64,000 nt of DNA from Cyclonatronum proteinivorum. GTDB lineage: Bacteria; Bacteroidota; Rhodothermia; Balneolales; Cyclonatronaceae. A program made the translations under genes and the position numbers. The stretch is taken from assembly GCF_003353065.1 (NCBI RefSeq), contig NZ_CP027806.1, positions 3,802,501 through 3,866,500 of the forward strand, in the 5' to 3' direction. This document shows positions 1,447-50,567 of this stretch, piece after piece. Each line of letters opens with the position of its first letter. The stretch's first letter is position 1. The notes beneath the pieces were generated by a model. It had not been told where the DNA came from, did no database searches, and saw only the letters and a program-made list of their open reading frames with translations.

Positions 1447-1539
1447 TAAAATCAGATATCGAAATAAAAAATCTGAATTTAGATTTTATATAACCTAAAG
1501 TTACCCTATATTCTAATATCAATATCCGATATAGAATAT
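1447..1539 (+). promoter_or_regulatory. Candidate operator region for the Rrf2 gene and cbb3 operon
   Basis: Two dyads lie in very AT-rich DNA just upstream of the Rrf2 start at 1547. One is taaaatcagat (1447-1457) against atctgaattta (1471-1481), which is its reverse complement apart from one extra base. The other is atattcta (1508-1515) against tagaatat (1532-1539), a perfect pair. Rrf2 regulators often bind AT-rich dyads over their own promoters, so autoregulation is a reasonable inference. No promoter elements were assigned. Confidence 0.5.
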
Positions 1540-1546
1540 TACCATT

Positions 1547-2005
1547 ATGCAATTTCTCTCCTTAGGCACCCAATACACGCTTACCGCCCTGATCTTCCTG
1601 AGTCGTCAGGAGCAAGGTACTGCGGTTTCAGCGTCCAAGCTGGCTGAGCCCTTAAACAGCCCCAGCACTTATCTGAGCCAAATGCTCACCCGCCTTATAG
1701 AGCCGGGTATCATCGGCACACGGCGGGGAATCCATGGAGGGGTGTATCTGGCTAAAGAAGCCGCTGAAATTTCGATATATGATATTGTTACGGCGGTTGA
1801 AGGCGACGATTTCTTTAAAACCTGCTTTCTCGGTATAAGCGGCTGCGGCGATGTTGAGCCCTGCCCTTTCCATGAGGAGTGGGGGAAGAAAAGAGGGGAT
1901 ATCGAGGAGTGGCTGCGCGCGACTTCGCTTGATGACCTTGCCAATGACCTGTCAAATCATCTTAGTAATGGCCTGTTTCAGTTTGAGCGCAAAGCCCAAG
2001 TCTGA
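1547..2005 (+). CDS. Rrf2-family Fe-S transcriptional regulator
   Basis: A 152-residue winged-helix regulator of the Rrf2 family (IscR, NsrR and RsrR relatives). The N-terminal helix-turn-helix (about residues 10-70) includes the typical S-x-x-Y-L-S-Q-M-L-x-R-L recognition helix and the GIHGGVYLA wing. Three cysteines, C93, C100 and C106 (C-x6-C-x5-C), are placed where family members bind a [2Fe-2S] or [4Fe-4S] cluster. A redox, NO or Fe-S-status sensor is therefore likely. The stop lies 21 bases before ccoI, so it probably heads the cbb3 operon and controls it. Two dyads sit upstream of its start. The exact signal cannot be decided from sequence. Confidence 0.88.
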   Translation: MQFLSLGTQYTLTALIFLSRQEQGTAVSASKLAEPLNSPSTYLSQMLTRLIEPGIIGTRRGIHGGVYLAKEAAEISIYDIVTAVEGDDFFKTCFLGISGCGDVEPCPFHEEWGKKRGDIEEWLRATSLDDLANDLSNHLSNGLFQFERKAQV

Positions 2006-2026: not shown

Positions 2027-4477
2027 ATGTCAACTGAACTGTTAGAGAAAACCCAGTGTACCCATTGCGGCGAACCCTGTGACGAAGAAATAATCTCGAC
2101 TGAAGAGGCGCATTTCTGCTGTCATGGCTGCCAAACGGTTTATGAACTGCTTAATGAAAGCGGGCTGGGATCCTTCTATAAAATAGATCAGGAAAATCCC
2201 GGCATTTCCATGCGGAAGGTGAAACAGGCGTCGCAGTTCTCCCATCTCGATGATCCGCAGGTGATGCAGCCGCTGCTGGATTTCAACGACGGTAAGACGG
2301 CGCGGGTAACCCTGCGTCTGCCGCAAATCCACTGCAGCTCCTGTATTTATCTGCTCGAGAATCTGCACAAGCTGGATTCGGGGGTTAAAAGTGCCGAAGT
2401 CTTTTTCGACCGCCGCGAAGCCGCCATCACTTTCAATATAGAGGCGCTCCCGCTTTCGGGGCTTGCCGCGCTGCTCAGCCGTATCGGCTATGAGCCGGAT
2501 CTGAGCCTGGATCATCTCAGCAAAAAGAAACAGCGCGCCACCAACCGCCCGCAGCTGCTTAAAATCGGTATTGCGGGTTTTGCATTTGGCAACATCATGC
2601 TGTTCAGCCTGCCGGAGTACCTTGCGGGTCCCGGCGGTATTGATGCGCAGTTTCTGAAGCTTTTCGGCGGACTCAACATCATTCTGGCTCTGCCGGTATT
2701 TTTGTACAGCGCTTTGGATTTCTACAAGCCCGCCCTGGCAAGTATTCGTCAGCGGCAGTGGAGCATGGATATTGCCATTTCGCTGGGTATCATGGCGATG
2801 TTCTTCCGCAGTCTGTATGAGATTCTATCCGGCATGGGTGTCGGCTATATGGATTCGTTTGCGATGTTGGTGTTCTTCCTGCTTGTCGGGCGGCTGTTTC
2901 AGCAAAAAACCTACGAGAGCCTGTCCTTCGACCGTGATTTTAAGTCTTACTTTCCGCTTTCCGTTATCCGCATAACGGAAAAGGGGGATGAAGAAAGCGT
3001 TGCTGCAACCCGCATAGAAGCCGACGACAAAATTCTGATCCGTAACGGTGAGCTGGTTCCGGCTGATGCCATCCTGCTCGATGAAGACGCCTGGCTCGAT
3101 TACAGCTTCGTGACCGGGGAATCCGAGCCCGTGCACATGCAGAAAGGCGCCCTTGTGTACGCCGGCGGGCGCAATGTAAAAACTGCTGCCCGCTTCAAAA
3201 CGGTGAAAGCGGTTTCGAGTAGCTACCTTACCCGCCTTTGGAACAGCGAGACTTTCCGGAAGCCCAAGCCGAAAGGCCTGCACTCGACTTCCGGCCGCTT
3301 CAGCCGCTATTTTTCTCCCGCCATTCTGGGCGTAGCAAGCCTTGCTGCCGCGTACTGGCTGTTCTTCGGGGAAGTCGGTCTGGCCCTAAATGCTTTCACC
3401 GCGGTGCTCATCATCGCCTGCCCCTGCGCCATTGCGCTATCTGCCCCATTCACTCTGGGCTGGGCGACCAAGATTTTGGGCAAGAACAAAATTTATCTCA
3501 AGAACTCCGAAGTAACGGAACAGTTTGCGGCGGTTACGAGCGTCGTTTTCGATAAAACGGGTACGCTCACGCACCGCGATCAGGCGCACGTCCGCTTTGC
3601 AGGACGCAACCTGGACCCTGATGAAAACCGGCTGCTCCTTTCTGCCCTGCACGAAAATACCCATCCGCTCGGTCGCGCGGTTTATCAGCACCTTCAGTCT
3701 GAAATCAGAGAGCCCATGCGCGAGCTGCTTCTTAAGCCCGATCACTACCGCGAAGAAAGCGGCAAGGGTGTAGAAGTCGTTTTTGGGGATAAGACCATCC
3801 GAATCGGTTCCGCTGTATGGGTGGGCGTCCCTAAGGATACGGAAGCCGATGCCCTGGCTTCGCGGGTGTATATCAGTTTTGACGGCATTGTGCCCGGCTA
3901 CTTTGAGCTGCAGAATCAGTACCGCAGCGGCATGAACGAGCTGATCGGGAACCTGCGCAGCCGTCTGAGCGACAGCGTGTTTCTGCTCTCCGGCGACAAT
4001 GATCAGGAGAAGCGCAACCTGCTTCCGGTATTCGGCAGCGAAGACCGGCTGCGATTCCGTCAAAGCCCGCACGACAAGCTTGCATTTGTGGACGGTCTCA
4101 AAGCGGGTCAACAGGAAGTACTCATGATCGGCGACGGACTCAACGATGCCGGTGCATTGCGCTCAAGCACCGTGGGCATTTCGCTGGCAGAAGACACAAG
4201 TAGCTTCACCCCCGCGAGTGATGTCATCATGGAAGCGGGCTCCCTAAGCCTGCTCGACCGCGTGCTTGCCTTCTCCCGCAGCGCCATCACCATCATTTAC
4301 ATCAGCTTCGGTATTTCCATCCTGTACAACATCATCGGACTGAGCTACGCCGTAACCGGCACCCTCTCCCCGCTGATTTGTGCCATCATTATGCCGATCA
4401 GCTCCATTTCTGTCATCCTTTTCACTACCCTGGCCACCCACTGGGTCGCCCGGAAAAACCAGCTTAAAACGACATGA
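2027..4477 (+). CDS. ccoI: Cu-transporting P-type ATPase CcoI (cbb3 oxidase maturation)
   Basis: An 816-residue P1B-type ATPase that exports copper for cytochrome cbb3 assembly. The N-terminus has a cysteine-rich metal-binding region (C11, C14, C18, C31, C32, C35), typical of CcoI/FixI, followed by a heavy-metal-associated domain with CSSC at 103-106. The membrane copper motif CPC is at 465-467. The phosphorylated aspartate is D509 in DKTGTLT. An HP dipeptide lies in the nucleotide-binding domain (THPLG) and GDGLND is at 702-707. About eight membrane helices are expected. Its last four bases overlap the ccoS start (ATGA), and ccoNOQP follows, which separates it from general CopA exporters. 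All catalytic residues are present. Confidence 0.93.
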   Translation: MSTELLEKTQCTHCGEPCDEEIISTEEAHFCCHGCQTVYELLNESGLGSFYKIDQENPGISMRKVKQASQFSHLDDPQVMQPLLDFNDGKTARVTLRLPQIHCSSCIYLLENLHKLDSGVKSAEVFFDRREAAITFNIEALPLSGLAALLSRIGYEPDLSLDHLSKKKQRATNRPQLLKIGIAGFAFGNIMLFSLPEYLAGPGGIDAQFLKLFGGLNIILALPVFLYSALDFYKPALASIRQRQWSMDIAISLGIMAMFFRSLYEILSGMGVGYMDSFAMLVFFLLVGRLFQQKTYESLSFDRDFKSYFPLSVIRITEKGDEESVAATRIEADDKILIRNGELVPADAILLDEDAWLDYSFVTGESEPVHMQKGALVYAGGRNVKTAARFKTVKAVSSSYLTRLWNSETFRKPKPKGLHSTSGRFSRYFSPAILGVASLAAAYWLFFGEVGLALNAFTAVLIIACPCAIALSAPFTLGWATKILGKNKIYLKNSEVTEQFAAVTSVVFDKTGTLTHRDQAHVRFAGRNLDPDENRLLLSALHENTHPLGRAVYQHLQSEIREPMRELLLKPDHYREESGKGVEVVFGDKTIRIGSAVWVGVPKDTEADALASRVYISFDGIVPGYFELQNQYRSGMNELIGNLRSRLSDSVFLLSGDNDQEKRNLLPVFGSEDRLRFRQSPHDKLAFVDGLKAGQQEVLMIGDGLNDAGALRSSTVGISLAEDTSSFTPASDVIMEAGSLSLLDRVLAFSRSAITIIYISFGISILYNIIGLSYAVTGTLSPLICAIIMPISSISVILFTTLATHWVARKNQLKTT

Positions 4478-4698
4478 GTGTAATGTACATGCTGATCGCT
4501 TTCAGCCTTATTCTCGCAGCAATGTTTTTACTGGCCTTCATTTGGGCCATGCGCGACGGGCAGTACGAAGACAAATACACGCCCAGTGTACGCATCCTTT
4601 TTGATGATGCGCCCATAGAACAAGATGAAGATTCCAAAGAACATCCTTCAATACAGCAACAGCAACAGCAACAACGAAACGAAACAAAAAAGCACTAA
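4474..4698 (+). CDS. ccoS: cbb3 oxidase assembly protein CcoS
   Basis: A 74-residue protein with one N-terminal membrane helix (about residues 5-25) followed by the CcoS-typical WAMRDGQYED segment. CcoS is needed for cofactor insertion into cbb3 oxidase in other bacteria. It overlaps the end of ccoI by four bases, indicating translational coupling. The C-terminal tail is hydrophilic with a glutamine run (about residues 60-67) encoded by cag/caa triplets, a low-complexity tail that probably varies between strains. Confidence 0.88.
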   Translation: MSVMYMLIAFSLILAAMFLLAFIWAMRDGQYEDKYTPSVRILFDDAPIEQDEDSKEHPSIQQQQQQQRNETKKH

Positions 4699-4751: not shown

Positions 4752-6935
4752 ATGGCAACTGAAACCTTCTATTACGACAACAAGATTGTCCGCAATTTTG
4801 CGATTGCGACGGCAATTTGGGGTGTAATCGGGATGCTGGTCGGCATAATCATTGCGATTAAGCTGTTTGCGCCGAACTTCCTGGGCTTCATACCGGAGCT
4901 CTCGTACGGCCGCCTGCGTCCGCTGCACACCAATGCCGTTGTTTTTGCCTTTGCGGGTAACGCCATTTTCCTGGGGGTCTATTACTCATTACAGCGCCTT
5001 TGTAAGAGCCGTATGTGGAGCGATACCCTGAGTAAACTCAACTTCTGGGGCTGGCAGGCCATTATCGTATCGGCCGTGTTCACCCTTCCCTTTGGCTTTA
5101 CCCAAAGCAAAGAATATGCTGAACTTGAGTGGCCCATCGCCATCGCCATCGCCGTAGTCTGGGTGATTTTTGGCGTCAATATGATGATGACCATCTATAA
5201 GCGCCGGGTTAAACACATGTATGTGGCGATCTGGTTCTATATCGCGACCTTCATTACCGTAGCCGTGCTGCACATCGTGAACAACCTGGTACTACCGGTT
5301 GATGCGCTCAAGAGCTACTCCATGTTTGCAGGCGTGCAGGATGCGCTGGTGCAGTGGTGGTACGGTCACAACGCGGTTGCGTTCTTCCTTACGACCCCGT
5401 TTTTGGGCTTCATGTACTACTTCATCCCGAAAGCGGCGAACCGTCCGATTTTCTCTTACCGTCTTTCTATTGTCCACTTTTGGGCACTGATCTTCATTTA
5501 CATCTGGGCAGGACCTCATCACTTGCTGTACACCGCCCTTCCGGGCTGGGCACAGTCGCTGGGCGTGGTGTTCTCGGTTATGCTTATTGCGCCTTCCTGG
5601 GGTGGTATGATCAACGGTCTGTTTACCCTGCGGGGTGCCTGGGACCGCGTGCGTCAGGATCCGGTACTTAAATTCCTGGTCGTTGGTGTAACGGCTTATG
5701 GTATGGCAACCTTTGAAGGGCCGATGATGTCCTTCAAGAGTGTGAACGCCATCACGCACTATACCGACTACGTAATCAGCCACGTGCACACCGCAGCCCT
5801 TGCCTGGAACGGTGGTCTGACCTTCGCGATGCTGTATTTCATTGTTCCGCGTATTTTCGGGACCAAGCTGCACAGTATCAAGCTGGCCAACTTCCACTTC
5901 TGGGCCGCTACGATGGGTATGGTGATTTACGTGATCCCGATTTACTGGGGCGGAATCACACAGTCGCTGATGTGGAAAGAATTCACCGCTGAAGGTACCC
6001 TGATGTACCCCAACTTTATGGAGACGGTAACCCACCTGATCCCGATGTACATTGCCCGTACGCTGGGCGGTACCCTGTATCTCACTGGTGTACTTGTGGG
6101 AACGTACAACCTGTTCAAGACCATGAAACAGGGCTCGCTGATTGCTGATGAGAAGGCTGAAGCGCAGGTTGCTGTAGCTGAATCTGCGGCGCGCAAAGAA
6201 AGCACCTTCCACCGCTGGCTGGAGTCCAAGCCAACGCTGTTCACCGTGCTTACAACCGTTGCCATCCTGATTGGGGGTATTGTTGAATACGTACCTACCG
6301 CGCTAATCAGCTCGAATGTACCGACTATTGCCAGCGTGCAGCCTTACACCCCGCTTGAGCTGGAAGGCCGCGATATTTACATCGCAGAAGGTTGTTTGGG
6401 ATGTCACTCTCAGATGATTCGTCCGTTCCGTTCTGAAACCGAGCGCTATGGCGAATATTCCAAAGCCGGTGAGTTTGTGTACGACCGACCCTTCCTTTGG
6501 GGCTCGAAACGTACCGGACCAGACCTGCACCGTGTAGGCGGCAAGTATCCTGATTCCTGGCACTATATGCACTTCATGGATCCGTACTCCACTTCGCCGG
6601 GCTCGATTATGCCGGCCTATTCGTGGTTTGTTGAGCGCGAAGTAAACGTAGACCGGATTCCGGCTAAGATCAGAACCCTGCAGCGCCTCGGCGTGCCTTA
6701 CGCAGAAGGCTTTGATCAGCAAGCCATCGATCATTACCGGCGTCAGGCTGAAGAAATCGCCAATGGTCTTAATGCCAGCGGTTTCGAAGCTGCCTGGAAC
6801 AGTCATATGGTGGCTATGATCGCCTATATGCAGCGTCTGGGTACTGATATTAGTGCACAGCCGGGCGAACGCGCGCATGCTATTCCGCTCCGGGATGATA
6901 CGCCCGAAGCTGCTACCACAGCGAGTCAGGACTAA
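4752..6935 (+). CDS. ccoNO: Fused CcoN-CcoO, cytochrome cbb3 oxidase subunits I and II
   Basis: A 727-residue fusion of the catalytic subunit (about 1-480) and the membrane-anchored mono-heme cytochrome c subunit (about 500-727), located in the inner membrane. In the CcoN part, H59 in RLRPLHTNA is a heme b ligand candidate. H206 (WYGHNAV) and H256/H257 (GPHHLLY) fit the CuB ligands, and H344/H346 (SHVHT) fit the high-spin and low-spin heme ligands. In the CcoO part, the heme c motif is C548-L-G-C551-H552 and a methionine ligand probably lies in SIMPAYSW. The fusion is common in Bacteroidota relatives. The gene sits between ccoS and ccoQ in one operon. Confidence 0.95.
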   Translation: MATETFYYDNKIVRNFAIATAIWGVIGMLVGIIIAIKLFAPNFLGFIPELSYGRLRPLHTNAVVFAFAGNAIFLGVYYSLQRLCKSRMWSDTLSKLNFWGWQAIIVSAVFTLPFGFTQSKEYAELEWPIAIAIAVVWVIFGVNMMMTIYKRRVKHMYVAIWFYIATFITVAVLHIVNNLVLPVDALKSYSMFAGVQDALVQWWYGHNAVAFFLTTPFLGFMYYFIPKAANRPIFSYRLSIVHFWALIFIYIWAGPHHLLYTALPGWAQSLGVVFSVMLIAPSWGGMINGLFTLRGAWDRVRQDPVLKFLVVGVTAYGMATFEGPMMSFKSVNAITHYTDYVISHVHTAALAWNGGLTFAMLYFIVPRIFGTKLHSIKLANFHFWAATMGMVIYVIPIYWGGITQSLMWKEFTAEGTLMYPNFMETVTHLIPMYIARTLGGTLYLTGVLVGTYNLFKTMKQGSLIADEKAEAQVAVAESAARKESTFHRWLESKPTLFTVLTTVAILIGGIVEYVPTALISSNVPTIASVQPYTPLELEGRDIYIAEGCLGCHSQMIRPFRSETERYGEYSKAGEFVYDRPFLWGSKRTGPDLHRVGGKYPDSWHYMHFMDPYSTSPGSIMPAYSWFVEREVNVDRIPAKIRTLQRLGVPYAEGFDQQAIDHYRRQAEEIANGLNASGFEAAWNSHMVAMIAYMQRLGTDISAQPGERAHAIPLRDDTPEAATTASQD

Positions 6936-6960: not shown

Positions 6961-7170
6961 ATGAGACGCGACGTTTTGGAAACCATTCAGGGGATCGAAA
7001 TTTTTCCCCTGATTTCCCTGGTCATTTTTGTCGGATTCTTCATCCTTATGCTCACCTATGTATTCAGTATGAGCAAAAACAAAGTTGAAGAACTCGAGAA
7101 CATGCCCCTTAGACCCGACTCTGACGAAGACGATATTTTCACCGCCGATTCCAAGGAAAAAAGGAACTGA
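6961..7170 (+). CDS. ccoQ: CcoQ-like small subunit of cytochrome cbb3 oxidase
   Basis: A 69-residue protein with a single membrane helix (about residues 14-36) and an acidic, charged cytoplasmic tail. Its size, topology and position between ccoNO and ccoP fit CcoQ, which stabilises the cbb3 complex. Sequence identity in this family is low, so the call rests on context. The gap to ccoP is two bases. Confidence 0.75.
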   Translation: MRRDVLETIQGIEIFPLISLVIFVGFFILMLTYVFSMSKNKVEELENMPLRPDSDEDDIFTADSKEKRN

Positions 7171-7172
7171 CA

Positions 7173-7844
7173 ATGGCTGAACAATCCAAAAAACCAAAAA
7201 ACGATCCCGATAAGAACCTGATCCTCGACGATGAACGGGATCTGCTGATGGATCATGAGTATGATGGCATTCAGGAGCTGGATAACAACATGCCGCCATG
7301 GTGGCTGTACGGCTTCTATGTGACCATCATTTTCGCGGTGGGCTACCTGCTGTACTATGATGTACTTGGATGGGGGCCTTCCCAGGAAGAAGAGTATGAA
7401 ATCGAGATGGCTATGGCCGCCGAGCGCTATGGCATTCAGGAAACAGAAGCCCGCGATTTTTCGCAGGCTGTGCTGCTCACCGATGCCGCAAGCCTGGAAC
7501 GGGGCCGCGAAGTATTCAACGCTTCCACCAACCTGTGTACAACCTGCCACGGGCAGAACGCACAGGGTCTGGTAGGGCCTGACCTCACCAATGAGTACTG
7601 GAAATACGGCTGCGATATGGAGTCGCTGATGGTAAGCATTAGTGAAGGCTTCCCCACCCGCGGTATGCCGGCCTATGGCAGCACTGTTCGCATTGGCGAT
7701 GACGATCTGGCGAAGCTTGCCAGCTATATCATCTCACTGCGCGGCACCAACCCTGCCGGCGCAAAAGCACCGGACATGAGCCGTTCTGAGCGCTGCGAAG
7801 ACCCGACTGCTGCCGGTGAAGATGTACCCGCAGCTGATGAGTAA
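7173..7844 (+). CDS. ccoP: CcoP, cytochrome cbb3 oxidase subunit III (single heme)
   Basis: A 223-residue membrane-anchored cytochrome c. The N-terminal CcoP-type domain contains YDGIQELDNNMPPWW followed by a membrane helix (about residues 46-68). A cytochrome c domain follows with C122-T-T-C125-H126 and a probable methionine ligand in TRGMPAYG. Proteobacterial CcoP carries two c-hemes; only one CxxCH is present here, the short form seen in Bacteroidota relatives. A GGA-containing site precedes the start. A long hairpin follows the gene at 7868-7910. Confidence 0.92.
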   Translation: MAEQSKKPKNDPDKNLILDDERDLLMDHEYDGIQELDNNMPPWWLYGFYVTIIFAVGYLLYYDVLGWGPSQEEEYEIEMAMAAERYGIQETEARDFSQAVLLTDAASLERGREVFNASTNLCTTCHGQNAQGLVGPDLTNEYWKYGCDMESLMVSISEGFPTRGMPAYGSTVRIGDDDLAKLASYIISLRGTNPAGAKAPDMSRSERCEDPTAAGEDVPAADE

Positions 7845-8094: not shown

Positions 8095-9579
8095 ATGAGC
8101 AAAGCAAACCAACGGGAAATTAACCCGATCACCCGAGAAGAAAGTTACCGGGATTTTGTCTCAACCATTACCGAAGACGGCAAACGAAACTGGATTTATC
8201 CCAAAAAGCCCGACGGGCGCCTGTATAAACTCCGGTCGTACCTGAGCTGGCTGCTTCTCGGATTTCTTTTCGCCGGCCCCTTCATTACCATTGGCGGAAA
8301 CCCGCTGCTGCTGCTCAACATCTTTGAGCGTACCTTTGTGATTTTCGGCGTCGTATTCTGGCCGCAGGATTTCTACCTGTTTTTCCTGGCCATGATCAGC
8401 CTCATCATCTTTATTGTTCTCTTTACGGCGATTTGGGGGCGTCTTTTCTGTGGATGGGTCTGTCCCCAAACCATATTCATGGAGATGCTCTTCCGGAAGA
8501 TTGAGTATGCCATTGAAGGCGATGCCACACAGCAACGCCGGCTGAACGAAGCCCCGATGAGTCAGGAAAAGTTTTTCAAAAAAGCGGCCAAACACACCCT
8601 TTTTGTAGCGATCGCCCTGCTGATAGCCCATACCTTTATGGCGTATATCATAGGTAAAGATCAGGTCATTGAGATTGTGATGGCCGGACCTGCGGAAAAC
8701 TTTGGCGGCTTCATGGCTACCATGGTATTTACCGCGCTGTTTTACGGCGTATTCTCCCGCTTCCGTGAGCAAGTCTGCCTTGTAGCCTGTCCCTATGGCC
8801 GCTTTCAGTCTGTGCTCGTTGATAACGACAGCATTGCGGTAACCTACGATTTTGCGCGGGGTGAAGGTCTCAAAGGCCGGGCTAAAGTAGGTAAGCGTCA
8901 GAAGATTGACGGGGTCGTAACCAATTACGCCAAAAACGGCGACACCGAAACCGAAGTGTATGGCGATTGTATCGACTGTGCGCAGTGCGTGAAAGTGTGC
9001 CCTACCGGTATTGACATCCGGAACGGGATTCAGCTGGAGTGTATCAATTGTACCGCCTGTATCGACGCCTGTAACGATGTTATGCGCAAAATCGGCAAGC
9101 CGGAAGAGCTGGTTACCTATACCTCCTATAACGCAGTTGCAAACGGTGAGAAACCCAACTTCTTCACCACACGGGTGAAAGCGTACCTTGCGGTTTTCAC
9201 CGTCATTTTTTCGGTCTTCCTGTATTTGTTCATTACACGTCCGGAAGTGTACACCGTAATTCTGCGCGAACCGGGCATGCTCTACAATGAACTACCGGGC
9301 GACCGTTTCTCGAACTTCTACAATGCGAAATTCTTCAACAAAACATTCAACGAAAGCGAAGTTGAGCTCCGCCTCATCAGTCCGGCTGGTGAAATTCAGT
9401 GGCTGGGCGAACAGCGCCCTGTTCCGGGTCAGCAACAGATCGAAAGCCGTATCATGGTCTTCCTGGATCGTGAACAGCTTGCCGGTGCGCAAACACCAGT
9501 CGAGTTTGGGGTTTACTTTGAAGGACGCCGCATTCAAACCCTGCGCACCAACTTTGTGGGTCCGCCACCCGGCCGCTAA
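8095..9579 (+). CDS. ccoG: CcoG/FixG/RdxA-type 4Fe-4S membrane protein
   Basis: A 494-residue membrane iron-sulfur protein of the CcoG family, reported to reduce copper for cbb3 oxidase assembly. Membrane helices flank the FCGWVCPQT motif (about residue 120). A second cysteine motif, CLVACPYGRFQS, lies near residue 230. The ferredoxin pair CIDCAQCVKVCP and CINCTACIDACN follows (about 290-330). The C-terminal 120 residues after the last helix match the immunoglobulin-like FixG domain. An AAGG Shine-Dalgarno-like site lies about nine bases before the start. It lies downstream of ccoP and upstream of fixH, so it belongs to the same maturation cluster. Confidence 0.93.
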   Translation: MSKANQREINPITREESYRDFVSTITEDGKRNWIYPKKPDGRLYKLRSYLSWLLLGFLFAGPFITIGGNPLLLLNIFERTFVIFGVVFWPQDFYLFFLAMISLIIFIVLFTAIWGRLFCGWVCPQTIFMEMLFRKIEYAIEGDATQQRRLNEAPMSQEKFFKKAAKHTLFVAIALLIAHTFMAYIIGKDQVIEIVMAGPAENFGGFMATMVFTALFYGVFSRFREQVCLVACPYGRFQSVLVDNDSIAVTYDFARGEGLKGRAKVGKRQKIDGVVTNYAKNGDTETEVYGDCIDCAQCVKVCPTGIDIRNGIQLECINCTACIDACNDVMRKIGKPEELVTYTSYNAVANGEKPNFFTTRVKAYLAVFTVIFSVFLYLFITRPEVYTVILREPGMLYNELPGDRFSNFYNAKFFNKTFNESEVELRLISPAGEIQWLGEQRPVPGQQQIESRIMVFLDREQLAGAQTPVEFGVYFEGRRIQTLRTNFVGPPPGR

Positions 9580-9655: not shown

Positions 9656-10120
9656 ATGGAAAATACTTCAACCAAAAAAGAATGGAAATGGCCCCTCGGT
9701 ATCTTCCTTTTTTACATGACCTTCGTGGTTGGTACCCTCACCTTCGTATTCTATACTTTTACCCAAAAAACAGATCTGGTAATCGAAGAGTACTATGAAG
9801 CGACCCTAACCTATCAGGATCATATAGACAAGGCAAAACGGGCCAACAGCCTGGCCGAACCTGTACAATTCAGCCTTCAGGGCCAACAAGCCAAGATCGT
9901 ATTCCCTGACTTCATGCAGGCAGATGGCCTCAATGGTAAGATCCAGCTCTACCGGCCTTCCGGTTCGAGTATGGATGAGCTTCTGCCGATTGTGACCGAT
10001 GAAAATGGCGTTCAGTACTTATCCTTTGCTGACCGTACGCCCGGCCTGTGGCGTGTGAAAGTTGACTGGGCATTCGACGGTCTTGACTATTACACTGAAC
10101 ACGATTTCTTTATCAGATAA
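9656..10120 (+). CDS. ccoH: FixH/CcoH family protein
   Basis: A 154-residue protein with one N-terminal membrane helix (about residues 12-34) and a periplasmic domain ending in a beta-sandwich-like segment (TPGLWRVKVDWAFDGLDYY). FixH/CcoH proteins are required for assembly or stability of cbb3 oxidase. The EEYYEATLTYQDHIDKA segment after the helix is characteristic of the family. It follows ccoG and is followed by a strong terminator, so it closes the cluster. Confidence 0.87.
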   Translation: MENTSTKKEWKWPLGIFLFYMTFVVGTLTFVFYTFTQKTDLVIEEYYEATLTYQDHIDKAKRANSLAEPVQFSLQGQQAKIVFPDFMQADGLNGKIQLYRPSGSSMDELLPIVTDENGVQYLSFADRTPGLWRVKVDWAFDGLDYYTEHDFFIR

Positions 10121-10572
10121 AATCCGGCCTCCATATCAGGCAGCCCGCTGCAGGGCAGTGCTTGATGGATATCGTTCGTCTTAGCCCGCTTTCAGCATTT
10201 GGAAGCGGGCTTTCTTATATCGCGACACTTCATATCGGGCTATGATATTTTTCTCATCTCATCCGATCAGCTTGAAATAACGTACCCTAATTTCGCGCCA
10301 TAGTTGCCCTTGCGCTATCCTTTTTGGTCTGTAGCTATGCAGCCTTCACCCAGAAAGAATATGCGGGAGAATGCCTTAGAACACCGCATTTTTCTCCATG
10401 TGAATAAGCGCTGAGTTCATTACCTTTCGGCATTGCAGCTGCACCGTATTCAGCTTTAAAAATCCGCTTTTAGGAACTAAAGCGTACGATTGAGATCCCG
10501 ATTTTTAAGCGATGGAATGCCGGTAATTAACAGTAGCTGTTCTACTTTTTTATTCAACTGAAGTACTTTTTT
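10121..10572. other. Intergenic region between ccoH and yicC
   Basis: Apart from the terminator at 10183-10215 I find no coding potential or recognisable RNA gene. The AT-rich stretch just before 10573 probably holds the promoter of the yicC-gmk-rpoZ-coaBC run, but no elements were assigned. Confidence 0.55.
10183..10215 (+). terminator. Rho-independent terminator after ccoH
   Basis: agcccgctt (10183-10191) pairs perfectly with aagcgggct (10203-10211) across an 11-base loop, and the stem is followed by a T-rich stretch. It ends the cbb3 cluster transcript. Confidence 0.78.
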
Positions 10573-39698: not shown

Positions 39699-41426
39699 TT
39701 ATACAGTTTGTGCTGATTCCGATTTTTTCTCTCCGGCATGTTCCTGATGGTATACATCATCGGAAATTCCGAGGGTAAATTCAGATACAGGCTTGTGGTA
39801 GTCATACGCTCCGTTTGTTACAACCGGCTGATAATCGAAGTTGTGCTGTACCGGCGGTGAGGAAGTCATCCAATCCAGCGTACGGGCACCCCATGGGTTA
39901 GCCGGAGCTTTTTCGCCCTTAAGAAGTGAATGCGCCAGATAGATGGCAATGATAACAAATCCGATTCCCAATACATATGAACCGATGGTTGAGAGCTGGT
40001 GCATAGCCTGGAACTGATCGATATAGGAGTAGTACCTGCGGGGCATACCCTGACTTCCCATGATGAACTGTGGCAGGAAGGTAAGATTAAACCCTATAAA
40101 TATAATTACAGCTGATATCTTGCCCCAGAATTCATTATACATTTTACCGGTCATCTTAGGCCACCAGAAATGTAACCCACCAAGGAAAGCCATTACCGTA
40201 CCCCCCATCATCACATAATGAAAGTGGGCTACAACATAATAGGTGTCATGGAGATGCACATTGACTGAAATAGCACCGAGCATGATACCTGTTACCCCAC
40301 CGATCGTGAAGAGAAACAAAAAGATACAGGCATAGAGCATCGGTGTTTTCATGTCTATAGAACCCTTATGCATGGTAGCCAGCCAATTAAAGATTTTAAT
40401 ACCTGTAGGAATACCTACAAAGAAAGTCAGAAATGAAAAGACTACTGTGCTCAGCTCACTTTGCCCGGACACAAACATGTGGTGTCCCCATACAAGCGAC
40501 CCAATAAAAGCAATAGCAAGACTTGACATCGCAATAGCCCAGTATCCGAATACTGTTTTTCTTGAGAATGTACCGATAAGTTCAGAAATAACCCCGAAAG
40601 CCGGAACAATCATAATATATACGGCCGGATGTGAATAGAACCAGAAGAAATGCTGGTACAATACAGGGTCACCCCCCAAGGCCGGATCAAAAATACCGAC
40701 TCCAAGTACGCGCTCCATAATCAGAAGTGCAAGGGTAATCGCCAGTACCGGTGTTGCCAGTACCTGAATAACAGAAGTTGCATACATCGCCCAAATGAAC
40801 AGCGGCAAACGACCCCAGGTCAAGCCGGGTGCTCTCATTTTATGAATGGTCACAATGAAGTTCATACCCGTCAGAATAGACGAGAACCCCATAATAAACA
40901 CACCGAATGTCATCAGTATGACCGCTGAGCCCGTCTGTACAGAATATGGGGTGTAGAACGTCCAGCCTGTGTCAATGGGATTAACAGCAAGAGAAGCCAG
41001 TGTGAAAAGTGCACCAATAGAATAGATCCAGAATGATGCCAGGTTCAGCCTGGGAAATGCTACATCTTTCGCTCCGAGCATAATCGGTAACAGGAAGTTA
41101 CCTAAGGCAGCGGGTATCGAAGGTATAATGAATAAGAATACCATAATCGCACCGTGCAGGGTGAAGATGCGATTGTAGGTTTCTGCATTCATCAGGTTTT
41201 CTGCAGGTGTAAACAACTCTGTACGAAGTACAAGTGCTAAAACACCACCCACAAAAAAGAAAAGGGCAATAGATGCAAGGTACATCAGGCCTATTCTCTT
41301 ATGGTCGACGGTGAACAACCATGATTTAAGACCTGATTCCGCGTTCAGATAATTTTTTGACGGATTTTCGTCAATATCAAAATAGCGGACTTTTAAAGTA
41401 TTTCCGTTTGATGCTGTGGCTGACAT
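39699..41426 (-). CDS. ctaD: Cytochrome c oxidase subunit I, A2-type caa3
   Basis: A 575-residue catalytic subunit binding heme a, heme a3 and CuB. H91 fits the heme a ligand. The CuB histidine and cross-linked tyrosine lie in YSHPAVY (264-270), H315-H316 are the other CuB ligands, and HFH in [12 protein letters not shown] carries heme a3 and heme a ligands. The usual D-channel glutamate of HPEVY is replaced by alanine, and Tyr-Ser precede the histidine. This is the A2-type arrangement described for the Rhodothermus marinus caa3 oxidase. It starts two bases after the subunit II stop. Confidence 0.96.
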
Positions 41427-41428
41427 AA

Positions 41429-42382
41429 TTACTGTAACTCCTTAATAAATTCAACTAAACCAAGAATTTCACGTTCGCTCAGTGTTTGTGCGTAAATAGT
41501 AGGCATATTGTTGGGATAGCCTACATTTACCTGTGCATTTGGGTCTACAATGGCTTGAACAAGGTATTCTTCGTCTGCTATTCTCCGTGTACCATCTGTA
41601 AACTCACGCTCTCTCATGTAAAGTCCGGCCATTGTAGGACCTACACGCGATGAACCATCAATAGAATGACAGCCCTGGCAACCGGCACTTGTAAAGACCA
41701 ATTGACCAAGCTCTGCAAGAGGTAATGCGTCTAAATCCCGGCCAAGTTCATCTTCTGTCCAAGCATCAAACTCTTCCTGTGTCTTGGCTCTTACAATACC
41801 ATTCATCATGGAATGACCGCCCCCGCAATATTCCGTACAAAAGTACACGAATTCACCCGGACGCACAGCTTCAAACCATGCAAAAGTGTACCGGTTTGGA
41901 AGCAAATCTTGTTTAAGACGGAATTGCGGAACAAAGAAAGAGTGTATAACATCCCCATCTCTTGAACGCATGATCAATCGTACAGGCTGTGCTACAGGTA
42001 CCGTAAGCTGATTGGCTTCTCGAATACCGTTTGGATGCTCGAAATTCCAACCGAATGAAAAGCTTTCAACATGCACTTCGTATGCATTAGCCGGTGGCGT
42101 CCGCATTTCAACGTAATCATTAAATCCCCAGAAGAACACAATGAGAATAAGAATGAGGGGGATTACGGTCCAGGTGACTTCAAGAGTAGTGTTGTGTGTT
42201 ATTAATGGTGTTGTGTCTTCCTGAGATTTTCTCCGGTATTTAATGGAGAAATATACAATAGCGATTGTAATTCCTACCAATAGTATGAGGCTTACTATAT
42301 TTATAAAATGAAATAAGCCATCCACATTAGCTGCGTACGTAGACTCAGCTGATGGAAGAAAAAAATTAGTTAAATATTCCAT
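41429..42382 (-). CDS. ctaC: Cytochrome c oxidase subunit II with fused cytochrome c
   Basis: A 317-residue subunit II of the caa3 type. Two membrane helices (about 26-48 and 72-87) lead into a CuA cupredoxin domain with H147, C182, E184, C186 and H190 in [10 protein letters not shown] and a methionine at 193 or 192. A C-terminal cytochrome c domain follows with C235-Q-G-C238-H239 and a probable methionine ligand near NNMPTIYA. The fused heme lets the oxidase take electrons from ACIII through its cytochromes. There is no clear lipobox. It sits between the SCO gene and ctaD. Confidence 0.95.
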
Positions 42383-42396
42383 AATTATATTTGCTG

Positions 42397-43272
42397 TTAA
42401 TCAAAACTAAGACCTGTTGCATCTTTTTTTCTCTCGCGTAACCAAAAGCCACCCAGGAAGATACCTAACCCGAGAAGTATCACTACTCCGCCAACCTTCA
42501 TGATATTCATAGCATAGGGAACATATGAACCCGAGTCAGGATCGAAGGTAAAACAATAAAGTGCAATACGCTCAAGCGTAGAACCTACTCTGCCGCCTGC
42601 CGCATCAAATAATGCATTTCTGACGTCCATTTCCCGGTAAGAAACACCATATAAATAACGGGTGATTCTCATTTCAGGAGAGATGAACATAATTGCAGAC
42701 CCATGCAGAAATTCCTGCGCTTCTTCGCTCCACACAAATGGAATCCCTACAGATTCGGATATAGCATCAATATTTTCCTGCGTACCGGTAAGGAAATGCC
42801 AACCTTCTTCAATACCGGATTTATTCATCCTGTCTGCGTAACCTTGCTTGACTTGAGAAGCAAGCTGATAGTCTTCGTTAGGATCTATACTAATGGTTAC
42901 GATGTCATACTCAACGCCGGGAGTCCATCTCACCTGCTCTACTGCATCGGCAACACCATTTAAAATGAGGCTGCAAATACTGGGACAGCTGAAATAGATG
43001 AGATTGAGGAGTACGGGTCTGTCAGACTCGAAAAACGAGCTTAGTTTAACTTCTTCTCCAAACTCATTAGTAAATACCAAATCCTCCGGAAGGTATTCGC
43101 CTAATTGTTCCTGAATTTGCAACTGCTCCAACAGACGCGCATTGGCTTCTGTGGCCGGATTGGTTGTCTGTGCAAACAATCCGTCAGTTGCAAAAAGAGT
43201 AGTGAATAGTAGAAGTGTTAGTAGCTGTATTTTAACAGAAAAATTCAAACTTGAGTACTGCGGGTTTATCAA
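42397..43272 (-). CDS. SCO1/SenC family copper chaperone
   Basis: A 291-residue thioredoxin-fold copper chaperone for CuA assembly. There is a signal peptide (about 12-34). Copper ligands are C96 and C100 in YFSCPSIC and H190 in EFLHGSAIMFI. A C-terminal membrane helix (about 255-277) with a basic end (RERKKD) anchors it, which is unusual since most SCO proteins are anchored at the N-terminus. Its start overlaps the end of the small upstream gene. It precedes subunit II, its expected client. Confidence 0.92.
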   Translation of the reverse strand: MINPQYSSLNFSVKIQLLTLLLFTTLFATDGLFAQTTNPATEANARLLEQLQIQEQLGEYLPEDLVFTNEFGEEVKLSSFFESDRPVLLNLIYFSCPSICSLILNGVADAVEQVRWTPGVEYDIVTISIDPNEDYQLASQVKQGYADRMNKSGIEEGWHFLTGTQENIDAISESVGIPFVWSEEAQEFLHGSAIMFISPEMRITRYLYGVSYREMDVRNALFDAAGGRVGSTLERIALYCFTFDPDSGSYVPYAMNIMKVGGVVILLGLGIFLGGFWLRERKKDATGLSFD

Positions 43273-43637
43273 TTATTGTTGCGTTGGTTTATTAAAATAG
43301 TTTTTGCGCTATCAACCGGGATTCTAAAAATCCCGGCTTCTTCATCAACCACTTCAAGCGTAGTCAAATGTCTTGCTGATTGCTCTCTGTGCTCATTCAA
43401 TACGGGATACTCCGTATTGATAGCTTGTTGGAATTGTGTGTCAAACTTCCAGAACTTGTAGAGATTAAAAGCAATTGCTATCAGGATTACCACGACAATA
43501 GAGGTTGCAACAGTCCACAACACAATTCGGGACATACTAAGTTCATCAGCCATCACGCCATCATTGATTGACGTTTGGGCGTCTGGATCACTCAGCTCAA
43601 AGTATTCCTTATCAGAATTATTTTTATCTATCTGCAT
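43269..43637 (-). CDS. Uncharacterised single-helix membrane protein in the ACIII-cox operon
   Basis: A 122-residue protein without a recognised family. It has an acidic N-terminus (about 1-35), one membrane helix (about 38-60) and a periplasmic tail that ends at RIPVDSAKTILINQRNNN. It overlaps the SCO start by four bases and follows actF by 14, so it is firmly in the operon. Similar small proteins lie at this position in other ACIII-caa3 clusters, by memory of family context. It could be an accessory subunit or assembly factor. Confidence 0.72.
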   Translation of the reverse strand: MQIDKNNSDKEYFELSDPDAQTSINDGVMADELSMSRIVLWTVATSIVVVILIAIAFNLYKFWKFDTQFQQAINTEYPVLNEHREQSARHLTTLEVVDEEAGIFRIPVDSAKTILINQRNNN

Positions 43638-43651
43638 GTCAGTAAACGAAT

Positions 43652-44836
43652 TCAGTGTTTGTTGAGTGATTCAATGAGCTTGGGATCGTTTTTAGGGACC
43701 ATGCTCTGTTGTTTAAAGTAGAAGAAAAATAAACCTAAAAAGATACCGGCAAGAGCAAGAAATGTAGCGAGGTCGAGCCAGTGGAATGCAAAGGTATCGT
43801 GCAGTGAAGGCATAATGAGCCAGTATAACTCAACGACATGACTTATTACAATAAAGACAGCCATGGTCTTCAGCACTGTGAAATTACCCTTGGCAGGTTT
43901 GGAGAGTAAAACTATGAAGGGAATTACAAACCGGCCAAAAATCACCGCATAGAAGATATATTGCCAGTTCCCTTCTAATCTGTAGAAGAAGAAAAGCGTA
44001 GCTTCAGGAATGTTTGCGTAATAAATAAGGAAAAACTGACCAAATGCTATGTAAGCGTAGAAAACTGTAAAGGCAAATAACCAGGCTCCCAAGTCTCTGA
44101 TATGAGCTTTATTAATCGTGTTGAGCAAAAGTCCGTTATTCCGCAAATAAAAAATTACAAGCAACAGAATAGCGAATATAGCCTGAAACGACATAGCGAA
44201 ATAATACACGCCAAACATGGTAGAGAACCAGTCAAAACGCAGCGACATAATCCAGTCGAAAGAGGCAAAAGCTACTGTGAAACCAAAGAAGAAAATGCCC
44301 GGAGCGCTGATTTTTCTGAGCGTCGTATCAATGCCCCAATCGCCGGTCTGATCCATCTTTATGGAGTTCTGATACAGCTTGTATCCCAGAAAAGCCCAAA
44401 TGGCAAAGTAAATGATGTTACGCGCAACGAAAAACGGAATATTCAGATACGGTGATTTATACTCTCTTAATCCTTCATAAAACGGATGGTATTGTTCCTG
44501 TGTCCATGGGAAAAGGGTTGTCATCCCAATAAGAATAGGAATAAAAAGGAGCCCAAAAACCCACAAATATGAAGAAAATGTCTCCGGAATTCTTCTAAGC
44601 GTAGTACCCCAGCTTGATCTTGTAATATGATGTATCATAACAAGAAACAGAGAGCCGAGTGAGATACTAATAAAGAAGGTAAAGCTCGTGAGGTAGGAGT
44701 GCAGAAATTGCTCAAAGTTTACCACAACGCCAACGAGACTTGCTATTATCCCTACAACCCCGATTGCTATAATAATACGTGAAGGATTTGCACTTTCGGG
44801 AAATTCAATACTGTCAGTAAGCTTTGTATGTGCCAT
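43652..44836 (-). CDS. actF: ACIII subunit ActF (quinol:cytochrome c oxidoreductase membrane protein)
   Basis: A 394-residue polytopic protein with about ten membrane helices. Segments such as SYLWVFGLLFIPILIG, AFASFDWIMSLRFDWFSTMFGVYY and LGAWLFAFTVFYAYIAFGQF match ActF, a divergent NrfD-like subunit of alternative complex III. It probably contributes to the quinol-facing membrane core and proton pathway together with ActC. It follows actE after 21 bases. Confidence 0.93.
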   Translation of the reverse strand: MAHTKLTDSIEFPESANPSRIIIAIGVVGIIASLVGVVVNFEQFLHSYLTSFTFFISISLGSLFLVMIHHITRSSWGTTLRRIPETFSSYLWVFGLLFIPILIGMTTLFPWTQEQYHPFYEGLREYKSPYLNIPFFVARNIIYFAIWAFLGYKLYQNSIKMDQTGDWGIDTTLRKISAPGIFFFGFTVAFASFDWIMSLRFDWFSTMFGVYYFAMSFQAIFAILLLVIFYLRNNGLLLNTINKAHIRDLGAWLFAFTVFYAYIAFGQFFLIYYANIPEATLFFFYRLEGNWQYIFYAVIFGRFVIPFIVLLSKPAKGNFTVLKTMAVFIVISHVVELYWLIMPSLHDTFAFHWLDLATFLALAGIFLGLFFFYFKQQSMVPKNDPKLIESLNKH

Positions 44837-44857
44837 TATATAATTACTGAGTCGTGA

Positions 44858-45517
44858 TTAATTTTGTGTAGCAAGATCGGAAGTCGGGTCATACAATCCG
44901 AAATCACCTGCTGTCAAACCAATAGAATTTACTTCTTCTTCTGTAGCTGCCTGACTGATCTGAAGCGCTCTGATATATGCAACAATAGCCCAGCGGTCTT
45001 CAGCTCTTGGAACAATTCTTCTGAAGGTCGGCATACTTCCTGCGCCATTGTAAATAGCGCTATATATTCCGCCATCAACCATTTCAAGAAGCCTGTCTTC
45101 ATGGAATGATGGTGGTGGCACATATCCTCTTTCAATTACCAAACCATTACCCAAACCGGAAATACCGTGGCATGGACTACAGGTAATTTCATACTGTGCG
45201 CGCCCGCGGTTCAGTAATTCACGGGTTATTTCTACCGGGATAAAATCTACCTGTGAGCCATCTGCATTTACACCCTGATACATGGCAAGGTCCTGACGAA
45301 GATGTCCGCGCGCAATTGTACCTTCAACAGGTACACGCATAGCTCTGCGGTCTTCGAAAAAGTCGTTAGGCTCAAATGCCTTGAATTTTTGCTGCCAGTA
45401 CATGTTTTGCTGAGGCTGTATTTGCGTTTTCTCGCTTGGCATACCCTGACAGGACGCTAATACGAGTACCGCAATAAAGAGCATCAGAAGATATTTGCCT
45501 TTTGAAATTGAAATCAT
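44858..45517 (-). CDS. actE: ACIII subunit ActE (monoheme cytochrome c)
   Basis: A 219-residue lipoprotein cytochrome. The signal peptide ends in a lipobox VLASC (cysteine about 23). The heme motif CSPCH lies in YEITCSPCHGISGLGNG (about 111-127) and a methionine ligand is likely in AGSMPTFR. It transfers electrons from ActA to the oxidase side. It lies between actD and actF. Confidence 0.93.
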   Translation of the reverse strand: MISISKGKYLLMLFIAVLVLASCQGMPSEKTQIQPQQNMYWQQKFKAFEPNDFFEDRRAMRVPVEGTIARGHLRQDLAMYQGVNADGSQVDFIPVEITRELLNRGRAQYEITCSPCHGISGLGNGLVIERGYVPPPSFHEDRLLEMVDGGIYSAIYNGAGSMPTFRRIVPRAEDRWAIVAYIRALQISQAATEEEVNSIGLTAGDFGLYDPTSDLATQN

Positions 45518-45532
45518 TTTAGGGTGCTCCTC

Positions 45533-46090
45533 CTATTCGTAGATATTTTCAATGTGTGACGCACCTGTTGATTCCAGGAACTTATAGGTTTCTTCCTCAG
45601 AATACATACCATCTTCAGTTTCAATTGTAATGAAAAACTTGTCATCCGTTACCCTGTTGAATGTTTCGGAGTTGAACAGGGAATTGTGATGCTTCGGAAG
45701 GTTATTGAGAAACAACATGCCAAATACAGCTGCAAAGGCAGACAACAGAATCGTCAGCTCAAAGGTGACTGGCACAAAAGCCGGAAGATTAACAAATGGT
45801 CGCCCACCAATATTTATGGGATAGGCAATTGACGCTGCCCAAACCTGTAAGGCGATACCACCGGAAAATCCAACGAGCGCATGGCTCAGTACTATCCAGC
45901 CTAATTTTGATTCTTTCAGACCCATTGCATCATCCATCCCGTGGATAGGGAAGGGACTGTGTGCATCAAACTTGGTATAACCGGCCCGGTTTACCAGCTT
46001 TGCAGCTTTCATCAGCTTGGCCGGATTGTCATATTCAGCCAGAACAGCAAATGTCTTTTTCTCTGTGTTTTCGGATACTATAGTGCTCAT
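45533..46090 (-). CDS. actD: ACIII subunit ActD (DUF3341)
   Basis: A 185-residue membrane protein. A cytoplasmic N-terminal domain (about 1-60, FAVLAEYDNPAKLMKAAKLV and YTKFDAHSPFPIHGMDDAM) precedes two helices (about 66-90 and 105-130). This is the DUF3341 architecture of ActD. It is 11 bases from actC upstream and 15 from actE downstream. Confidence 0.93.
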   Translation of the reverse strand: MSTIVSENTEKKTFAVLAEYDNPAKLMKAAKLVNRAGYTKFDAHSPFPIHGMDDAMGLKESKLGWIVLSHALVGFSGGIALQVWAASIAYPINIGGRPFVNLPAFVPVTFELTILLSAFAAVFGMLFLNNLPKHHNSLFNSETFNRVTDDKFFITIETEDGMYSEEETYKFLESTGASHIENIYE

Positions 46091-46101
46091 CTTTAGCTGG
46101 C

Positions 46102-47517
46102 TTATGCGTTAGAATCGTTAGCTTTTTCCTTGACGGGTTCATTGCCGTCTTCGTCATAATAGTGCGGATCAGCCTGTGGCATTACCATTTTAACCTCAGC
46201 AATGGCTACCATCGGCAGGAATCGCAGGAAGAGCAGGAAGTTGCTGAAGAATAAACCGAAAGTCCCAACATAGGTTAAAACGTCAACCCAGGTCGGAGAA
46301 TAATAGGCCCAGGAACCCGGTAGAAAGTCTTGTGCCAGGGAAGTTACGGTAATCACAAACCGTTCAAACCACATCCCGATGTTCACAACTATTGAGAGTA
46401 TGAATGATACTGTAATGCTTCTTCTCATTTTCTTGAACCAAAAGAAATTAGGTGCAATAACATTACAACTCATCATAATCCAATAGGCCCAGGCGTAGGG
46501 CCCGACAGCCCTGTTAACGAAGGCAAATTTTTCGTATTCGACCCCCGAGTACCATGCTATGAAGAACTCCATGATGTAGGCAAAACCAACCATCCAGCCT
46601 GTTACGAGAATAATGATATTCATCTTCTCTATATGGTCGATGGTCATAATATCTTCAAGCCCATATATCTTCCGCGCAATGATCATGAGTGTCATTACCA
46701 TTGCAAAGCCCGAGAAAATTGCACCCGCTACGAAGTAGGGTGGGAAAATAGTCGTGTGCCATCCGGGGATGATCGATACGGCAAAGTCAAAAGATACAAT
46801 AGTGTGTACAGAGAGTACGAGTGGCGTGGCGATACCAGCCAGAATCATGTAGGCCTTCTCGTAATGCTGCCATTGTCTGTTACCACCTGTCCAGCCGAGT
46901 GCAAAAATACCGTACAGCTTTGCAGCAAGCTTACTTTTTACGCGGTCTCTGAGAGTTGCAAGATCCGGAATCAATCCCACGTACCAGAATAAAAGTGATA
47001 CCGTAAAGTAAGTCGATACAGCGAACACGTCCCAAAGCAGCGGGCTGTTGAAGTTTGGCCACATTTGCATCTGATTCGGAAGCGGAAATACCCAGTAAAT
47101 TACCCAGATTCGACCGACGTGTACGGCTGGGAATATACCCGCACACATTACCGCGAAAATGGTCATGGCTTCTGCAAACCTGTTAATTGCAGTACGCCAA
47201 CCCTGTCTGAAAAGGTAAAGTACAGCACTGATCAGCGTCCCGGCGTGACCGATACCGACCCACCATACGAAGTTGATAATCGCCCAGCCCCAGGCTACGG
47301 TATTGTTCAGACCCCAGACGCCGGTACCTTCCCAAATGAGATAGGCCAGCATAAGGAAAAGCAAACCCAGCAAAAGGTTTGATATCCCGAAGGCGATGTA
47401 CCACCAAAATGGGGTGGGTTTTTCAACAATGTCGGCTACCAGTGCCGTGATGCTACTGAAGGTATGGTTCCCCTGCACGAGAGGAGCTTCTTTTACATAA
47501 CCACTATTACTGCTCAT
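46102..47517 (-). CDS. actC: ACIII subunit ActC (NrfD-like integral membrane subunit)
   Basis: A 471-residue NrfD/PsrC-like protein with about ten helices. Landmarks are [34 protein letters not shown], with a conserved histidine, and [26 protein letters not shown]. It forms the main quinol oxidation site with ActB. It lies 38 bases after actB. Confidence 0.95.
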
Positions 47518-47555
47518 GTATGACTGCTTTGAATTGTAGTTCTTGGTTGCAGGGC

Positions 47556-50500: not shown

Positions 50501-50567
50501 TATAGGCTTCATTCTGAGAGAGTTCCTGCAGACTGCGCCAATACGTTTTTTGCTTAGTACTTGACAT
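47556..50567 (-). CDS. actB: ACIII subunit ActB (molybdopterin-like domain plus Fe-S domain)
   Basis: A 1003-residue periplasmic subunit. The N-terminal region has a Tat-like segment without a full twin-arginine ([18 protein letters not shown]) and a cysteine that could be lipidated. Residues about 60-720 resemble the molybdopterin oxidoreductase fold, which lacks the cofactor in known ACIII. The C-terminal part (about 740-960) carries four ferredoxin-like cysteine motifs: [38 protein letters not shown] with CTYCVQRI, and CQQACP. These hold three [4Fe-4S] and one [3Fe-4S] clusters in the structures of the family. It follows actA after 33 bases. Confidence 0.95.

Follow-up and report, generated by a model that had tools for sequence, protein, structure and literature searches.

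The window, by which we mean the whole stretch of 64,000 nucleotides analysed here, belongs to the genome of Cyclonatronum proteinivorum (4.29 Mb, a single contig). Near its start a cbb3 oxidase operon is encoded on the forward strand in the order rrf2-ccoI-ccoS-ccoNO-ccoQ-ccoP-ccoG-ccoH. The first gene, rrf2 (1547-2005), encodes a winged-helix regulator of 152 residues, assigned by Pfam PF02082 and by invariant cysteine and histidine residues. Its stop codon ends at 2005 and the ATG of ccoI lies at 2027, which gives the 21 bases between the two genes described in the original prediction. The gene ccoI (2027-4477) is assigned from its domains and operon position as the copper P-type ATPase for oxidase assembly. 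It is followed by ccoS (4474-4698; PF03597, TIGR00847), ccoNO with fused subunits I and II (4752-6935; NF011053, 1226 bits), a ccoQ-like gene (6961-7170) whose PF05545 score of 22 bits is under the cut-off of 29, ccoP (7173-7844; PF14715, PF13442), ccoG (8095-9579; TIGR02745, 396 bits) and ccoH, or FixH (9656-10120; PF05751). By motif count ccoP has one CxxCH motif, and the canonical CcoP has two. Near its end the ccoS frame contains a glutamine run encoded by a CAG/CAA repeat, at about 4654-4674. Farther along the window (39699-50567, minus strand), the translated reading frames read by eye apparently include a second terminal oxidase of aa3-like type, together with Sco-like and alternative complex III-like genes. 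Both a low-affinity branch (aa3-like, read by eye) and a high-affinity branch (cbb3) thus appear to be encoded in the window. The string ctctacgccgcggctgt occurs twice, at 1-17 and 431-447, and by eye it is perhaps an intergenic repeat.

How is the operon transcribed? A scan for sigma-70-type promoters found no promoter-like site on the forward strand between rrf2 and ccoI, so the simplest reading is a single transcript starting upstream of rrf2. Its end is likely marked by a terminator-like hairpin of 13 pairs on the forward strand (10183-10211), which has the longest stem among 13 such sites, where shuffles give 9.9 expected.

The product of rrf2 scores 98.2 bits against the Rrf2 domain PF02082 (cut-off 30) and 89.4 bits against TIGR00738 (cut-off 73.3), which places it in the Rrf2 superfamily. 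Rrf2 is the only Pfam family matched; neither a cNMP-binding nor a Crp HTH domain was found. The protein contains the motif C93-x6-C100-x5-C106 followed by P-F-H109 (C106-x2-H109), and all four residues, Cys93, Cys100, Cys106 and His109, are invariant across an alignment of 28 sequences, with the three cysteines typical of Fe-S Rrf2 regulators. The open reading frame at 1547-2005 is thus the Fe-S-type Rrf2 gene with the C-x6-C-x5-C pattern that had been proposed, and judging from these residues its product probably holds an Fe-S cluster through Cys93, Cys100, Cys106 and His109. The protein falls below the cut-off of every equivalog model compared: IscR (TIGR02010, 61 vs 207.55 bits; the gene is linked to cco and not to isc), NsrR (NF008240, 35 vs 182), RirA (NF008886, 47.9 vs 193), the SUF-system regulator suf_reg_Xantho (TIGR02944, 58 vs 110.65) and CymR (NF047409, 50.4 vs 195). 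Its predicted structure has a mean pLDDT of 83, and Foldseek matched it to structures of RsrR, CymR, IscR and NsrR. A tree built from 37 Rrf2 proteins places the ccoI-linked ones to one side of a moderately supported branch (77/90).

Two AT-rich dyads had been predicted upstream of the regulator gene. Inverted repeats do occur there, at 1464-1477/1478-1491, 1446-1457/1471-1482 and 1508-1515/1532-1539. Under a scoring scheme of our own, however, their scores were matched or beaten in dinucleotide shuffles 24 times out of 500 for 1440-1546, 7 out of 500 for 1440-1500 and 55 out of 500 for 1500-1546. Since shuffles reach equal scores, complementarity was rejected as evidence for the dyads. Conservation separates the two. 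Among six members of the genus, 25 of the 28 positions of a promoter-operator block at 1507-1534, which spans most of the second dyad, are invariant, compared with 22 of 87 positions upstream. Moreover, the 18-bp core of the second dyad recurs, with no more than 3 mismatches, ahead of 38 of the 39 linked rrf2-ccoI units. On account of this conservation the second dyad is taken as real. No such conservation in the genus is seen for the first dyad as drawn (1464-1491), which was rejected as an operator for this reason. The prediction therefore stands for one dyad of the two, also with regard to conservation before ccoI in relatives. The genus alignment contains one more conserved block, ATTTAGAT-TTT-ATCTAAAT, over the -35 region (1477-1495). 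Its palindrome ATTTAGATTTTATCTAAAT is perfect in three of the six genus members; the right arm is altered in the window and in genome G005, and the block is absent in G001.

The operator core is TCTAATATCAATATCCGA (1512-1529, forward strand), a form of the consensus TCTAATAT-N2-ATATTAGA with 2 mismatches. The consensus was defined from the upstream sequences of the 26 linked promoters and then scored on them; in 25 of the 26 the best site within 200 bp departs from it at no more than 3 positions, a level reached by no more than 9 of 300 shuffles for each promoter. The exception is G022, where rrf2 and ccoI are linked and the operator is absent within 200 bp at up to 3 mismatches. In 13 genomes fetched after the pattern had been fixed, the operator is present at up to 3 mismatches in all 13 and exact in 7. 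Where two tandem rrf2 genes precede ccoI (G024 and G056, loci L019 and L021), the second gene has an exact operator and the first a degenerate one with 3 mismatches. Two genomes encode rrf2 away from ccoI; in both of them the operator stands before ccoI itself, with 2 mismatches, and the unlinked rrf2 has a 3-mismatch operator upstream. Transcription of ccoI from a promoter of its own, independent of the regulator, would have spoken against control in cis; the promoter scan of the rrf2-ccoI gap and the operator placed before ccoI in these two genomes give it no support. Among genomes with ccoI and no close regulator the operator was found in 0 of 4 ccoI promoters, a count that leaves out G011, whose ccoI lies at a contig edge.

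Might the palindrome be no protein site at all, and simply chance complementarity in AT-rich promoter DNA? Complementarity alone is within the shuffle range, as noted above. The palindrome is nevertheless kept across genera, is present in all 13 genomes added once the pattern had been settled, and tracks the presence of the regulator, so that we regard a chance origin as hardly credible. With TCTAATATNNATATTNGA at up to 1 mismatch, the 28 genomes with the regulator yield 61 matches on one strand and 67 on the other, the cco sites included, where the reversed control yields 9 and 12; ten regulator-free genomes give 5 and 3 against 2 and 2. Within the window's genome, the looser pattern TCTAATATNNATATNNGA has a single match without mismatch, the cco site; at up to 2 mismatches it gives 23 and 19 matches against 16 and 12 in the control, which is little excess. 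A genome-wide regulon drawn from this genome alone was dropped, as these matches are too near the control, and the regulon sites counted below are mainly those that recur in relatives.

A -10-like element, TATATT, lies at 1507-1512 on the forward strand, as found by promoter alignment and by scan, and the operator begins on its final base. A -35-like element lies at 1484-1490 of the same strand. The scan reads it as TTTATA (1485-1490) with 16 nt of spacer, the promoter alignment as TTTTAT (1484-1489) with 17 nt. That alignment comprised 50 sites picked for carrying the operator (35 rrf2 promoters, 2 ccoI, 8 pflB and 5 hemN), leaving out G022, the first tandem copies and three order genomes fetched later. 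Relative to the operator start, T-T-G/T falls at -28 to -26 and TAWAWT at -5 to 0. This layout corresponds to a sigma-70-like promoter whose spacer measures 17 nt, the final T of the -10 element being operator base 1. An independent promoter scan of the window gave TTTATA-16-TATATT ending at 1512, as one of 14 promoter-like matches in 9.3 kb, compared with 8.7 in shuffles. Because the operator starts on the last base of the -10 element, it should cover the transcription start, which is expected near 1519 (about -7 to +11). This position fits a repressor, and we infer the sign of regulation from it. Geometry alone is no proof of repression, since IscR activates or represses from slightly shifted sites (PMC8561392, available part).

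Is the pairing of regulator and oxidase peculiar to this species? The survey covered 59 genomes of the order and below, the window's own included and several of them incomplete, with thresholds of E up to 1e-80 for CcoI and below 1e-40 for a close Rrf2. CcoI is present in 33 of the 59 genomes. A close Rrf2 was found in 28 of these 33, as against none of the 26 without CcoI, and it stands directly before ccoI in 26 of the 28, being unlinked in G007 and G010. Five genomes have CcoI without a close Rrf2 (G011, G023, G025, G042 and G053). In genus g8 both genes are present in four genomes and both absent in four. Owing to the relatedness of the genomes, these counts are not independent. Searching 145 genomes of the class at E up to 1e-35 added 13 further genomes of the order, all 13 with rrf2 adjoining ccoI, and gave no close Rrf2 relative beyond the order among the genomes searched; the sole weaker match outside, in G102, is not beside ccoI. 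A phylum-wide linkage was rejected, since tblastn on fetched flanks found an Rrf2 gene at 0 of 18 ccoI loci outside the order, these being the best 18 of 41 matches in a phylum-wide sample of 118 genomes; three loci of the order, used as positive control, were all matched. One of the 18 loci (G184) has a 3-mismatch operator match with no regulator, which is taken as chance. The proposal of an Rrf2 regulator in cis to the cbb3 operon is thus borne out in that the linkage is kept through much of the order, with a conserved palindrome in the promoter.

Several loci in this survey have a composition of their own. In G107 and G154 (loci L238 and L240) the ccoI-linked copy is preceded, in divergent orientation, by another Rrf2 gene that is only distantly related (33% identity), and the linked copy of G154 contains an internal TAA. 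In G025 (L032), a distant Rrf2 gene precedes cytochrome c-like and NosZ-like genes, as read by eye; in the tree it falls in a separate clade, distant from the ccoI-linked genes.

The cbb3 operons of Proteobacteria are usually under FNR/FixK. In the window's genome no FNR-type protein was found in a search with one profile, HTH_Crp_2, which gave five matches, one of them above the cut-off; the other four look, by eye, like different kinds of protein. The lone Crp-family protein is not FNR-type because it has a single cysteine, and FNR control in this genome was rejected on that ground. Outside the order, 5 of the same 18 ccoI loci (best 18 of 41), all from family f30, have a divergent Crp-family gene with a cysteine-rich N-terminus beside ccoI, two of the five having been tested with Pfam. 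Family f30 is presumably of the Flavobacteria. These FNR-like regulators share with Rrf2 the place next to ccoI and the expected job, but they have the Crp fold and are unrelated to Rrf2. The rrf2 product resembles FNR in job, not in descent.

There is a further question of concern: does the operator occur before other genes? In the window's genome, matches lie about 25 bp before pflB and about 30 bp before a protoporphyrinogen oxidase gene, the latter recurring in the close relative G005. The upstream region of hemN shares the 19-mer CCTATATTCTAATATCAAT with the cco promoter, and the hemN site departs from the full consensus at 4 positions, a level reached in 8 of 300 shuffles. Thirty genomes were searched for pflB, which turned up in 13. 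In 8 of these the operator precedes it with no more than 2 mismatches (a level seen in 0 of 300 shuffles), namely in all seven genomes of family f1 where the gene was found and in G018. Among pflB orthologues absent from the earlier pattern matches, 5 of 10 carry the operator. For hemN, found in 17 of 28 genomes, the operator is present at up to 3 mismatches in three (G005, G007 and G008) and at up to 4 mismatches in five of the 17, adding G000 and G004 (8 and 4 of 300 shuffles); hemN of G001, G002 and G010, also of family f1, is without a site. G008 has nine sites (8 matches per strand, against 0 and 0 for the reversed-pattern control) that include hemN, pflB, sdhC, two universal stress genes and an Amphi-Trp gene. 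Other sites lie before PEP carboxykinase in G001, before an acyl-CoA ligase in G004 (by profile) and in G002 and G003 (by eye), and before YceI-like genes in G056 (by profile) and in G024 and G048 (by eye). Matches in G000 before genes named by eye as asparaginase-like and acetyl-CoA hydrolase-like are candidates only. Families f4 and f5 have the regulator, yet their pflB and hemN are without a site, so that the wider regulon, if real, would lie mainly in family f1. Of 14 matches examined in f4 and f5 besides those at ccoI and YceI, 9 are inside the longest reading frame and 5 do not recur among the loci examined.

Which protein would serve these additional sites? In five of the six genus members there is an unlinked paralog of the regulator, 51% identical to the linked copy in the window's genome (in G000 it lies at 664-1113 of locus L171). 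It keeps all four ligand-type residues and could bind the same sites. An AT-rich block upstream of it is similar in four of the five copies. One may thus suppose that the ccoI-linked Rrf2 controls its own operon only, and that pflB, hemN and the other sites in the genus are served by this paralog or by another factor. The paralog looks more conserved across the genus than the linked gene, and G009, in an assembly 88% complete, has a pflB site and no close Rrf2 that was found. In G008 and G018, on the other hand, pflB sites are present with the ccoI-linked copy as the only close Rrf2 in the assembly, the assemblies being 87% and 92% complete. We consider this division of labour unlikely, though it is the one among the alternatives that we would take most seriously.

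Taking these results together, we favour, with somewhat more than even confidence, the reading that the gene encodes an autoregulated Rrf2 repressor which releases the cco operon when oxygen is low and which, in one family, commands an FNR-like regulon. In this scheme an Rrf2 dimer would bind the palindrome TCTAATAT-N2-ATATTAGA, the bound dimer over the transcription start would block RNA polymerase, and Rrf2 would thereby repress its own gene together with the whole cco operon. Repression at high oxygen and release at low oxygen is the direction we infer, because the operon encodes a high-affinity oxidase and the same operator stands before pflB and hemN in one family. If repression takes place in air, then the apo or oxidised form of Rrf2 should be the one that binds, as has been proposed for apo-IscR at hyaA and as found in vitro for oxidised RsrR.

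An alternative effector is the Fe-S or iron status of the cell. The apo form would then repress iron-costly genes (the hemes of cbb3, the partners of SdhC, HemN) when iron or clusters are short, and oxygen would act indirectly. The well-studied relatives IscR and RirA sense cluster or iron status (PMC9338935, available part), and hemN, sdhC and protoporphyrinogen oxidase are putative targets related to heme or Fe-S. No isc or suf gene, however, was recognised by eye among the inspected reading frames neighbouring the sites, and the site is also carried by pflB, universal stress, PEP carboxykinase and YceI-like genes. The products of these four kinds of gene are not iron-rich. We therefore hold an iron-status sensor to be rather improbable.

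A nitric oxide sensor is less probable again. Such a protein would be an NsrR-like repressor that frees the cbb3 operon once NO damages its cluster; it would belong to the Rrf2 family and have three cysteines, as the rrf2 product does, and within that family NsrR is the member known to sense NO (PMC5411485, available part). Against this, the product is far below the NsrR equivalog cut-off, as given above, neither an NO reductase nor a flavohaemoglobin gene could be made out by eye in the inspected neighbours of the sites, and sites at pflB and hemN fit low oxygen better than NO. We give this explanation very little weight. As for NsrR itself, the NsrR-DNA structure 7b0c is among the Foldseek matches; in the available part of PMC5411485 the fourth ligand of S. 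coelicolor NsrR is Asp8, and residue 8 here is, by count, Thr.

The favoured reading, an oxygen-responsive repressor, may be compared with better known systems, for which the sources cited are represented by the parts available. IscR of Escherichia coli shares the Rrf2 fold and three cysteines with a histidine three residues past the last one, its ligand residues being C92, C98, C104 and H107 (PMC8593673). Its cysteine spacing is x5/x5 compared with x6/x5 here, one extra residue lying between the first two cysteines, and rrf2 differs in being linked to cco instead of isc and in its operator. Apo-IscR is more active at type II sites in air, hyaA is poorly repressed in anoxia, and apo-IscR has been proposed as the repressor of hyaA in air (PMC8561392); a passage in a review, contrary to this, names holo-IscR as the repressor of hyaA (PMC8593673), which counts against the apo-IscR precedent. 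RsrR of Streptomyces venezuelae gives the best Foldseek matches by E-value (6hse and 6hsd, at about 24% identity). It also has inverted-repeat operators, its autoregulation is thought likely, and in vitro it binds DNA tightest when oxidised (PMC5015018). RsrR differs in that its apo form is without DNA binding, its operator has an 11-3-11 layout, and its class 1 targets suggest roles in NAD(P)H and glutamate metabolism (PMC5015018). In Melioribacter roseus, the Rrf2 gene Mros1101 lies beside the nosZ cluster, also a respiratory operon, and is its proposed regulator; that locus resembles by eye the one in G025, and the available part of the paper names no Rrf2 gene for the cbb3 operon of this organism (PMC3534657). 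A literature search combining Rrf2 with cbb3, ccoI, pyruvate formate, hemN/FNR or Balneola, which covered titles and the starts of abstracts and few subscription papers, did not find the present system.

Some points speak against the favoured reading and should be noticed. They are the linked pair without operator in G022, the pflB site without close regulator in G009, the 51% identical paralog, the lack of sites at pflB and hemN in families f4 and f5 and at hemN in some f1 genomes, and the weak signal in the window's own genome.

If the reading holds, what would it mean for the order? A broader scenario, which we put forward tentatively and with less than even confidence, is that in Balneolales an Rrf2-type Fe-S repressor has replaced FNR. 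It would head the cbb3 operon, regulate itself, and in family f1 command a regulon of pflB, hemN, succinate dehydrogenase, universal stress and gluconeogenesis genes, acting by repression in air as opposed to activation in anoxia. The idea is directly testable, because the operator is defined and the list of target genes is short. If true, a large part of the order would control respiration in response to oxygen through a protein family other than that of the FNR/FixK activators, and by the opposite logic, with a repressor letting go in place of activation. It would also add an oxygen-type role to the Rrf2 family, which is known for NO, iron, cysteine, redox and Fe-S sensing.
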